Positions 44,261 through 64,000 of a stretch of DNA of 64,000 nt are shown in pieces. Below the pieces are notes generated by a model. That model made no database searches. It was not told the origin of the DNA and saw only the letters and a program-made list of their open reading frames with translations. Source of the DNA: Phyllobacterium sp. 628 (GTDB lineage: Bacteria; Pseudomonadota; Alphaproteobacteria; Rhizobiales; Rhizobiaceae); contig NZ_CP050301.1 of assembly GCF_014189505.1 (NCBI RefSeq), forward strand, positions 2,239,501 through 2,303,500, in the 5' to 3' direction. The position numbers and the translations under genes are program-made. Position 1 is the stretch's first letter. Each line of letters begins with the position of its first letter.

Positions 44261-44854
44261 ATGCCGGACAACAAGACAGACACAAGATCGGGCGCGGACT
44301 GGTCGGCAGTGATGCCGAAGCAGGCGATTCCGGCTGCCAATCTGCTGTCGCCGCCCATGGGCGCGATAGCTGCTGCGTCTGTTTTGAGCATTGGCATCGC
44401 CACCCAGATGTGGGGTCTGTGGGCAGGTGCGCTTGCCGGTATGATCGATGCAAATACGCGGGTAAAGCCGCAACCTACTGAGCCTGAGGCGCACGTCGTG
44501 CCAGATGTTGATCAATTGAAGACGATTATCCGCAAGCAAACAGCGGTGCCAGCACCAAAACCGGCTGCTGTTAAAACACCCAAGGCGGCAGTTGCCAAGA
44601 TTTCAAGAGGGCCGGCAAAGCCCGAAGCAATCGCCAAGCCGGTCATTGCGGACGATTTGAAGCGCATTTCCGGCGTTGGTCCGAAACTGGAACAGGTTCT
44701 GAACGGACTTGGTATCTACACCTACGCGCAGATTGCAGCATGGTCACCGCAGGAAATCACCTGGATGGATGATCATCTGAAATTTGGCGGACGTATAGTA
44801 CGTGATGAGTGGGGCAAACAATCCGCTGCTTTGGCAGAGGGGAAGCCTGAATAA
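44261..44854 (+). CDS. Small membrane-anchored protein with helix-hairpin-helix-like domain
   Basis: 197 residues from ATG (MPDNKTDTRSGADW). A hydrophobic segment near residues 30-65 (GAIAAASVLSIGIATQMWGLW and on) is a probable membrane anchor. A Lys/Ala/Pro-rich linker follows. The C-terminal 70 residues (DDLKRISGVGPKLEQVLNGLGIYTYAQ and WMDDHLKFGGRIVRDEWGKQ) repeat the domain that ends NuoE. Rhizobiales nuo operons often have such a gene here. It is not one of the 14 core subunits; a complex I assembly or regulation role is only a guess. Confidence 0.8.
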   Translation: MPDNKTDTRSGADWSAVMPKQAIPAANLLSPPMGAIAAASVLSIGIATQMWGLWAGALAGMIDANTRVKPQPTEPEAHVVPDVDQLKTIIRKQTAVPAPKPAAVKTPKAAVAKISRGPAKPEAIAKPVIADDLKRISGVGPKLEQVLNGLGIYTYAQIAAWSPQEITWMDDHLKFGGRIVRDEWGKQSAALAEGKPE

Positions 44855-61263: not shown

Positions 61264-62549
61264 CTGAATCGGCCGTCACTGTCGCACAATCGGGTCCAAA
61301 ACCGTTCTCTGCCTATGAGCGGATGATTGCATGGCGCTATTTGCGCGCCCGCCGCAAGGAAACGTTTATCTCGGTGATTGCCGGTTTCTCTTTTACCGGC
61401 ATCATGCTCGGCGTTGCCACGCTCATCATCGTCATGGCGGTGATGAATGGCTTTCGCGCCGAGCTTCTGACCCGCATTCTTGGGATCAACGGCCATGTCA
61501 TCATGCAGCCGGTGGACCGTCCGCTGGATGACTATGACAATGTGATCAAGCGGATCGATGCTGTTCCCGGCGTGTCCTTTGCCATTCCGGTCATTGAAGG
61601 GCAGGTCCTGGGGCAGGGCAATGTTGGGCAGGGCGCCGGTACGCTTGTGCGGGGTCTGCGTGCAGAAGACATCCAGAAACTCCAGCTTGTCGCCAAAAAC
61701 GTCAAGCAGGGCACTTTCGAAAACTTTGACAAGGCCGGGGGTGTGGCCATCGGCACCCGCATGGCGGAAAATCTTGGTCTTGGCATCGGTGACAAGCTGA
61801 CGTTGATGTCGCTCGATGGTGATGTGACACCGCTTGGTGTATCGCCGCGTGTCAAATCCTATCCTGTGGTGGCCATTTTCCAGATCGGCATGTCGGAATA
61901 TGATGCGTCCATCGCCATCATGCCGCTGGACGAAGCGCAGCTTTATTTCAATCAGGAAGGCAAGGTCCAGTCGATCGAGATTTTTGCCAACAATCCTGAC
62001 AATGTCGACGCGCTGAAAAAGCCCATTGAAGATGCTGCCCAGCGACCGCTTATGCTCACCGACTGGCGCCAGCGCAACGTGACGTTCTTTTCTGCGCTGC
62101 AGGTGGAACGCAACGTCATGTTCATGATTCTGACACTGATCGTGCTTGTCGCAGCGCTGAATATCATTTCAGGCCTCATCATGCTCGTGAAGGATAAGGG
62201 GCGCGATATCGCCATTCTGCGAACCATGGGTGCGACGCGAAACTCGGTCATGCGTATCTTCCTGATGACCGGTGCGGCCATCGGTGTCACCGGCACGATT
62301 GCCGGGGTGGCTCTTGGCGTGCTCGTCTGCCTCAATGTCGAACGCATCCGCCAGTTCTTCTCGTGGTTGTCAGGTACAACCCTGTTCAATCCGGAACTGT
62401 ATTTCCTGAGCACATTGCCCGCCAAGATGGATTTCAACGAAACCTTCACGGTGATTCTGATGGCGCTTGTCCTGTCCTTTCTGGCTACGCTGTTTCCCGC
62501 ATGGCGGGCGGCCAAGCTCGATCCTGTTGAAGCCCTGAGGTACGAATAA
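61260..62549 (+). CDS. lolC: Lipoprotein-releasing ABC transporter permease (LolC/LolE)
   Basis: 429 residues. Inner-membrane permease that hands mature lipoproteins to the periplasmic carrier LolA. It has an N-terminal helix ([30 protein letters not shown]), a large periplasmic domain and three C-terminal helices of the FtsX type (from [28 protein letters not shown]), with [11 protein letters not shown] at the end. One permease gene is present here, so it probably forms a homodimer (LolF-like), as in many alphaproteobacteria. Its stop overlaps the lolD ATG by one base. Confidence 0.92.
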
Positions 62550-63232
62550 TGGCTGCCGGAACTATTCTTCAGCTGACCAATGTCGGCCGCCGGTACAATG
62601 AGATTGGCCGCGAACTGACCATTCTCGATGATGCCAGCTTTTCGCTCGGCAAGGGCGAGATGGTGGCTCTGGTCGCGCCGTCAGGTGCAGGCAAATCCAC
62701 CCTGCTGCACACGGCGGGCCTGCTCGAGCGCCCGGACAATGGCGATGTGATTCTCGACGGCCGTTCCTGCGGCTCGCTGTCCGATGAGGAGCGCACGGCA
62801 ATCCGTCGCAACGATATTGGCTTCGTCTATCAGTTCCATCATCTTTTGCCGGAATTCTCGGCACTGGAAAACGTGATGATGCCGCAGATGATCCGTGGCA
62901 TGAAACCACGTGTGGCTTCCGAACGGGCCCAGCAGCTGCTTGATTATATGAAGGTGGGTGCCCGTGCATCGCATCGCCCGTCCGAGCTTTCCGGTGGTGA
63001 GCAGCAGCGCGTGGCCATCGCCCGTGCTGTGGCCAATGCGCCGCTTGTTCTGCTTGCGGATGAACCGACCGGCAATCTTGATCCGGTGACGGCGGCCTAT
63101 GTGTTCGAGGCGTTGGAAGCCCTGGTGCGCCAGTCCGGCCTTTCCGCCATGATCGCCACGCACAACCATGAATTGGCTCTGCGCATGGATCGCCGGGTGA
63201 CCCTCAAGGACGGCAAGATCACCACAATCTGA
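62549..63232 (+). CDS. lolD: Lipoprotein-releasing ABC transporter ATPase
   Basis: 227 residues. The ATPase of the Lol exporter. Walker A is APSGAGKST, the Q-loop region is [20 protein letters not shown], the signature is [14 protein letters not shown], and Walker B is [11 protein letters not shown]. The [11 protein letters not shown] segment is typical of LolD. It starts on the lolC stop and is followed by a strong hairpin. Confidence 0.96.
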
Positions 63233-63254
63233 TCACCGGGTTCGATCAGATTAC

Positions 63255-63280
63255 CAGCCTTCGGCGCAGGCCGAAGGCTG
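63255..63280 (+). terminator. Strong hairpin after lolD (no T tract)
   Basis: CAGCCTTCGG and CCGAAGGCTG pair perfectly, with a C-G pair closing a 4-base loop, 22 bases after the lolD stop. It lacks a T tract but is probably the 3' boundary of the proS-lolC-lolD message. Confidence 0.55.
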
Positions 63281-63371
63281 CAGTGTGTTCATCAGACCGC
63301 GCCTCGCGTTAATCTCTTTTACCCCTTGTTAGGAATTCGACAACCATAGCCCAAATGGGGGCTTTGGTGCG

Positions 63372-63396
63372 CTTGACTTTGGAACAAAAATAGAAC
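63372..63396 (+). promoter_or_regulatory. LexA-type SOS operator GAAC-N7-GAAC next to a -35 element
   Basis: The sequence GAAC-AAAAATA-GAAC (63382-63396) is a perfect match to the alphaproteobacterial LexA box (GTTC-N7-GTTC on the other strand). It begins 5 bases after CTTGAC, a consensus -35 hexamer, so LexA bound here would block the promoter. The small membrane-peptide gene begins 40 bases further on. Confidence 0.7.
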
Positions 63397-63435
63397 AAAA
63401 CATATACACAACACAAACGAAGAAGGGTTTTACCG

Positions 63436-63522
63436 ATGAGCGAACTTTTCCAGGACGTCATGTCATTCGTTACAGTCAGCCTGTTCATTGCGACATTCGC
63501 CATGTGGGTCAGTGCTATTTGA
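63436..63522 (+). CDS. 28-residue single-span membrane peptide, candidate SOS-induced (SidA-like) division inhibitor
   Basis: The peptide starts MSELFQDVMSFVTVSLF and ends MWVSAI. Residues 8-28 form one hydrophobic helix, and the N-terminal residues are acidic (Glu3, Asp7). AAGGG lies 8 bases before the ATG. The start, the promoter-operator and a terminator hairpin after the stop frame one short transcription unit. In Caulobacter, SidA is a 29-residue inner-membrane peptide induced by SOS that stops division through FtsW/FtsN. The size, the location in the membrane and the LexA box fit that role here, but this is inference. Confidence 0.6.
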   Translation: MSELFQDVMSFVTVSLFIATFAMWVSAI

Positions 63523-63531
63523 GACCGGAAT

Positions 63532-63560
63532 CGGGACGATGAGTAAACGGTCCCGGTTTT
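63532..63560 (+). terminator. Terminator-like hairpin after the membrane-peptide gene
   Basis: CGGGAC (63532-63537) and GTCCCG (63550-63555) form a 6-pair stem with a 12-base loop, followed by GTTTTC. It is of moderate strength and lies 10 bases after the stop codon. It also separates the peptide gene from the convergent phosphatase gene. Confidence 0.6.
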
Positions 63561-63599
63561 CTCCTTCCTGCCAGCGGGTGTTCAGTGCGTGCGCTGTAC

Positions 63600-64000
63600 C
63601 TATTTCTGGTTCCACTTGCGGATCACCGGTTCGGTGAGATCGTGTTCATAACCAAGCACACTCACGCTGGTTGTATCCAGAACAAACAGCGAGCCTGATT
63701 CCGGCGGCAAGCCGAGCCAGCGCGCTGCAAGCACTCTTAAAAAGTGCGAGCTTGAAAAGACGAGAACCGTGCCATCCGTGGCACGCAGCTGTCCAATAAT
63801 CCGGTCCGCGCGCGCACCCACATCCGCAGCCATTTCGCCCTGCGGCGCTCCATCGCGAAACAATTGCCAACCCGGACGCTCGACAAGAATCTGCTTGGTG
63901 GTCAGACCCTCATAGGCACCGTAATCCCATTCGGCCAGATCATCCTTGATCACGCGGGCATTGCCAAAACCGGCGAGGGCGCAGGTATTCGATGCGCGCT
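63600..64000 (-). CDS. Histidine phosphatase family protein (phosphoglycerate-mutase-like; N-terminus outside window)
   Basis: About 133 C-terminal residues are visible; the reading frame runs past the right edge. KDDLAEWDYGAYEGLTTKQI is the typical loop with the acidic catalytic residue, and DGTVLVFSSSHFLRVLAARWLGLPPESG contains the second catalytic histidine. The RHG motif near the N-terminus must lie outside the window. Members remove phosphate from sugars or other small molecules. The gene converges on the small membrane-peptide gene. Confidence 0.88.
   Translation of the reverse strand, partial: RASNTCALAGFGNARVIKDDLAEWDYGAYEGLTTKQILVERPGWQLFRDGAPQGEMAADVGARADRIIGQLRATDGTVLVFSSSHFLRVLAARWLGLPPESGSLFVLDTTSVSVLGYEHDLTEPVIRKWNQK

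Follow-up and report, generated by a model that had tools for sequence, protein, structure and literature searches.

A 28-codon membrane-peptide gene behind a LexA box in Phyllobacterium sp. 628: a probable diverged orthologue of the Caulobacter division inhibitor SidA

Does a tiny unannotated frame, lying behind a LexA-type box just after lolD in Phyllobacterium sp. 628, encode an SOS-controlled inhibitor of cell division? To our knowledge, the SidA family has been regarded as confined to Caulobacter relatives. SidA is described in PMC4211646 as a 29-residue inner-membrane protein that binds FtsW, and the gene corresponds to CCNA_02004 (PMC10769358). The literature searched for SidA homologues outside Caulobacter, as far as its accessible extracts go, names none in Hyphomicrobiales. 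Herein, the locus is considered within the window (the whole 64,000-nt stretch analysed) and in comparison with relatives at increasing distance.

An earlier, sequence-only reading had described a CTTGAC element, a perfect box, an AAGGG and a 28-codon membrane frame after lolD, and all of these were located (Table 1). The encoded peptide is MSELFQDVMSFVTVSLFIATFAMWVSAI, 28 aa with a single hydrophobic stretch. The lolD frame is the genome's best LolD-family match at 256.6 bits, a score under that family's curated cut-off. Two further elements of the description stood in part. The operator, claimed to overlap the promoter, does lie just 3' of the conserved -35 element, and no convincing -10 accompanies it: a sigma-70 promoter scan of the site returned no match, the -35 being good and the -10 not recognisable. 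Similarly, the claimed hairpin and T run are present, with a stem of about 10 bp at roughly 63527-63560 leading into the T stretch, and their value as a terminator is weak, the fold being no more stable than shuffled sequences (z -0.48) and a simple terminator scan, covering loops of 3-8 only, not having listed the hairpin after the peptide frame. Downstream, the convergent gene resembles a 'histidine phosphatase family protein' record (a plasmid match). It occurs in 5 of 20 same-genus loci, the window's among them (L002 and L014-L017 in the locus set), as a lineage-specific insertion by which sidA is parted from dnaE.

Table 1. Features of the peptide locus in window coordinates
Feature	Position	Strand	Remarks
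lolD	62549..63232	+	ABC-transporter ATPase gene; upstream neighbour in 20/20 same-genus genomes
-35 element CTTGACT	63372..63378	+	CTTGAC (63372-63377) invariant in 20 same-genus genomes
LexA operator GAACAAAAATAGAAC	63382..63396	+	direct repeat GAAC-N7-GAAC, exact; motif match, conserved
Ribosome-binding site GAAGGG	63422..63427	+	AAGGG at 63423-63427; 8 nt 5' of ATG; conserved block
Putative sidA-type gene	63436..63522	+	28 codons + TGA, one membrane helix; unannotated
Hairpin + T run	63527..63560	+	possible intrinsic terminator; weak
Convergent histidine-phosphatase-like gene	63600..63998	-	runs off the window; between peptide gene and dnaE

At the same position in relatives, where the sequence-only reading had suggested looking, both box and frame are kept throughout the genus. 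By tblastn, the frame was found at 89-100% identity in all 20 genomes of the genus that were searched, one of them the window's own; the exact box stands 54 nt 5' of the ATG in every one of them, and both GAAC half-sites are invariant. In the wider set, comprising the window's own genome and relatives, the frame was found in 30 of 59 genomes (tblastn, E <= 1). The 19 distinct coding sequences within the genus encode five proteins; variable columns at codon positions 1, 2 and 3 number 4/2/19, and the pooled pN/pS over the distinct copies is 0.041. Judged by this substitution pattern, the 28-codon frame is a real gene under strong purifying selection. Furthermore, lolD and dnaE flank it in all 20 loci.

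As a signal on its own, the box did not hold up. The exact motif was found twice in the 64-kb window against 2.06 expected, and 170 times genome-wide (5.25 Mb) against 188 for the pattern read backwards. Since these counts equal chance in both window and genome, the box alone is not significant; by itself it is at chance level and proves nothing. The second exact GAAC-N7-GAAC in the window, at 44690-44704, has a mixed spacer and is probably a chance occurrence. Fifteen other box sites, mostly with A+T-rich spacers, were fetched from the first 100 of the 170 listed places, and at least 5 of the 15 lie upstream of SOS genes. Perfect boxes precede uvrA with divergent ssb, recA, DNA polymerase IV (dinB), a second Y-family polymerase gene and lexA, a gene present in this genome, where the box and the LexA match are 57 nt apart. 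At the peptide promoter, the GTTC-N7-GTTC direct repeat of the alphaproteobacterial LexA regulon is found 3' of the -35, and by this motif the operator before the peptide gene is a predicted member of this genome's SOS set.

The comparison with SidA required a Caulobacter sequence. A search with MipZ gave only ParA-like matches, and the neighbouring ParB together with its PDB match was used as the route. In C. vibrioides DSM 9893, the lolD-dnaE stretch contains a box and a 29-aa frame that scores 72.4 bits against NF033228 'cell division inhibitor SidA' (NCBIfam, div_inhib_SidA; cut-off 35), and a longer in-frame start in this frame agrees with the correction of the sidA start codon reported in PMC4117421. 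The window peptide shares with SidA its size (28 against 29 residues), one membrane helix, the upstream GAAC-N7-GAAC, the lolD-dnaE position and a common N-terminal pattern around R/Q-D/E, S and F. In contrast, it falls below detection by the curated model and lacks the WMM/VW core, the gap to lolD is about 200 nt instead of about 1.1 kb in C. vibrioides, and the peptide gene is followed by the convergent gene instead of dnaE.

Alignments of 29 Hyphomicrobiales peptides (A2) and nine Caulobacterales peptides (A3) were then set against each other. By hhalign, A2 and A3 matched over 22 columns with a probability of 92.5% and E 4.9e-7; the score of 27.7 was reached by 0 of 600 permuted controls, the best being 16.9 among 300 column permutations and 23.4 among 300 hydropathy-preserving ones. 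In addition, when the 1948 frames from Caulobacterales loci were ranked by A2 alone, the first 17 places all went to SidA frames, with E from 0.0003 to 0.11. The earlier proposal of a SidA-like, LexA-controlled peptide had been drawn solely from the length, the box and the membrane helix; its relationship to SidA is now supported by position, profile-profile comparison and profile ranking.

Direct retrieval gave negative results. Scans of the window peptide against Pfam, NCBIfam and PADLOC assigned no family, and NCBIfam, including the curated SidA model, yielded no match at E <= 10. Among the 59 genomes, 0 relatives exceeded the NF033228 cut-off, and the weak matches that were checked against known lolD positions do not coincide with them. 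The frames that Brevundimonas has at the sidA position score 28.5 bits, also under this cut-off, and the model is therefore narrow; such a narrow reach agrees with the view of the family as confined to Caulobacter relatives. The A2 profile retrieved sidA in 0 of 10 whole Caulobacterales genomes, and when the class was searched with the first profile, of 13 rows, no match other than the window's own peptide was convincing. The next-best match in that search (E 0.007) was rejected, lying inside a 585-aa frame. The sequence is too short for retrieval by profile alone, and the case leans on position and box; the proposed membership in SidA draws on the combination of position, operator and profile similarity.

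Outside the genus, an exact box was found within 200 nt upstream in 8 of 10 fetched loci, those without being L022 and L025. Both were dropped as unclear members, L025 since the match lies inside a 477-aa frame and L022 since its box stands 403 nt upstream. Neither lolD nor dnaE was found in the L022 stretch, where a SidA-like 28-aa frame on the reverse strand (about 1501-1584 of the locus) comes right after the stop of an 86-codon frame; this may perhaps be a second, operonic copy. Box and 28-aa frame are present in the lolD-dnaE gap of S. meliloti Ak57, Sinorhizobium sp. K101 and Shinella sp. PSBB067, and in the first two of these, three half-sites stand in register as a double LexA box. The S. 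meliloti record, whose gene table is incomplete, has no annotated gene in the gap, and the gap of strain Ak57 also contains other short frames. In Paracoccus pantotrophus, the gap holds neither box nor 28-aa frame. Three GAAC half-sites in register at N7 were seen before the peptide gene in loci L090 (3767-3792), L091, L021 and L234, and two overlapping LexA boxes of this kind may afford tighter or cooperative repression. Some Caulobacterales sidA promoters (L212, L214-L216, L220-L222) have two one-mismatch boxes 18 nt apart and no perfect one.

The reach of the arrangement was surveyed across 164 alphaproteobacterial lolD loci, comprising 25 named Caulobacterales, an order sample of 68, a class sample of 69 and 2 plasmid-collection records. 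The order and class loci are non-random, having been taken from the best 30 matches per search together with 80 manually chosen places, for the most part one or two for each family label among the places listed. For the interval count, 61 of the 164 were left out, as their stretches were not found to contain both lolD and dnaE in the expected order; the 103 others gave 67 intervals of at least 150 nt and 36 shorter ones. GAAC-N7-GAAC was present in 43 of the 67 longer intervals, and in 33 it was accompanied by a membrane frame of 24-50 aa whose start lies within 60 nt, compared with a mean of 0.66 boxes (largest 3) and 0 cases of box plus frame in 100 dinucleotide shuffles. Among the control patterns, GTTC-N7-GTTC occurred 7 times (5 with a frame), GAAC-N6-GAAC, GAAC-N8-GAAC and AACG-N7-AACG once each, and three others not at all. 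The 36 intervals below 150 nt contain no box. Broken down by group, the combination of box and frame was found in 21/37 of the order, 6/48 of the class, 4/16 of the Caulobacterales and 2/2 of the plasmid-collection loci.

A profile built from the whole set extended this count. At a threshold of 8 bits or more, a frame was found in 31 of the 68 loci of the order sample (an exact box lying within 150 nt in 26), in 6 of 68 class loci (6 with a box) and in 17 of 25 Caulobacterales loci (9 with an exact box), counts that are not independent, as profile members were chosen by eye, partly by means of the box, and many of the counted peptides are in the profile. The 31 positive order loci span 20 different family labels. 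Conversely, 62 of the 68 stretches in the class sample and 37 of the 68 in the order sample lack the peptide; some of these stretches are short. Twelve of the frames that the profile found were not among its members, and a box with no more than one mismatch stands upstream of 11 of them, where roughly 0.035 per stretch would be expected. Across genera, it is the peptide motif that is common, not the DNA.

Altogether, these results make it rather probable that the window gene is a diverged orthologue of Caulobacter SidA, a predicted SOS-induced and FtsW-directed division inhibitor. Other readings of the locus have to be weighed against this. The peptide might belong to a different type of SOS membrane peptide, for instance a TisB- or DinQ-like toxin acting through a drop in membrane potential and a slowing of metabolism, its likeness to SidA being superficial. 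Such peptides have the same size class, LexA control and a single helix, and DinQ is reported in PMC3567139 as a toxic single-transmembrane SOS peptide. This is unlikely, however, given that position and profile similarity point to SidA, that neither Pfam nor PADLOC matched the window peptide, and that no antisense RNA family was seen in the region, an Rfam scan of 62900-64000 having returned two chance matches, far below threshold.

It has also to be asked whether the frame is a regulatory leader ORF (uORF) of dnaE, tuning expression of the replicative polymerase under SOS. In 15 of 20 same-genus genomes, and likewise in S. meliloti, dnaE follows the frame directly, and possible uORF roles have been suggested for the S. 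meliloti sORF25 (PMC10117765). In the remaining 5 genomes, however, frame and box survive despite the convergent gene that intervenes before dnaE, for which reason a dnaE leader is disfavoured. Moreover, it is the amino-acid sequence that is conserved, beyond length or codons, and C. vibrioides SidA at the same place is a known trans-acting inhibitor (PMC4211646); a leader role is accordingly quite improbable. A small LexA-controlled RNA in which the frame is incidental is conceivable from a short transcript with a hairpin end, yet it is very improbable in view of the low pN/pS with changes concentrated in third positions, the failure of any Rfam family to reach threshold in 62900-64000, and a motif shared across genera at the peptide level and not in DNA. 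Finally, the chance pairing of a random box with a random hydrophobic frame, in keeping with a box count equal to chance in window and genome, is refuted by the 20/20 conservation, the pN/pS and the absence of box plus frame from the 100 survey shuffles.

Under the SidA reading, the peptide is most likely a predicted SOS-induced inhibitor of FtsW-dependent division, both induction and division arrest being deduced by analogy. LexA on the operator would block transcription of the peptide gene, and DNA damage, through RecA-driven cleavage of LexA, would release this repression. The peptide would then insert in the inner membrane, bind FtsW and keep the FtsW/FtsI/FtsN complex inactive, as published for SidA, so that septation would wait until repair. 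Since the convergent gene parts the peptide gene from dnaE, only the peptide in trans, and not a dnaE leader, comes into play here. The FtsW protein encoded in this genome shares 44% identity with its C. vibrioides counterpart and has retained A31, F145 and A246, the sites of published SidA-suppressor mutations, a finding that is only permissive. In an AlphaFold 3 model of low confidence, SidA is positioned at helix 7 of FtsW (PMC13396833).

Several known systems offer points of comparison. DidA of Caulobacter is likewise a DNA-damage-induced, single-helix membrane division inhibitor, but it has 71 residues, is SOS-independent and binds FtsN (as PMC4211646 describes it). YneA, SosA, ChiZ and other SOS division inhibitors are small membrane proteins too, are induced by SOS and target the complex for septal synthesis; they are set apart by other sequences and extra domains such as LysM (PMC13396833). 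A further point of comparison is S. meliloti sORF25, a translated ORF from ribosome profiling in the dnaE1 5'-UTR, published only as a possible uORF (PMC10117765). This small translated ORF lies where strain Ak57 has the 28-aa membrane frame behind the double LexA box; going by location, it is probably the same gene, unrecognised, and translation of the peptide gene in a relative is thereby likely.

These findings provide a direct candidate for stopping division after DNA damage in Hyphomicrobiales, a 28-codon gene skipped by annotation pipelines. They would carry SidA beyond Caulobacterales, into 20 family-level groups of a second order within the sample, account for the published orphan sORF25 if its probable identity is right, and supply dozens of diverged sequences for finding the residues that touch FtsW. 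A broader proposal, tentative and somewhat short of probable, is that sidA is an ancestral alphaproteobacterial SOS checkpoint gene kept beside dnaE, with a single LexA promoter that, in many lineages, brings about division arrest via the peptide and can also read into dnaE. If true, a checkpoint taken for a Caulobacter 'speciality' would be the usual response to damage in Hyphomicrobiales, in species to which the literature searched assigns no division inhibitor.
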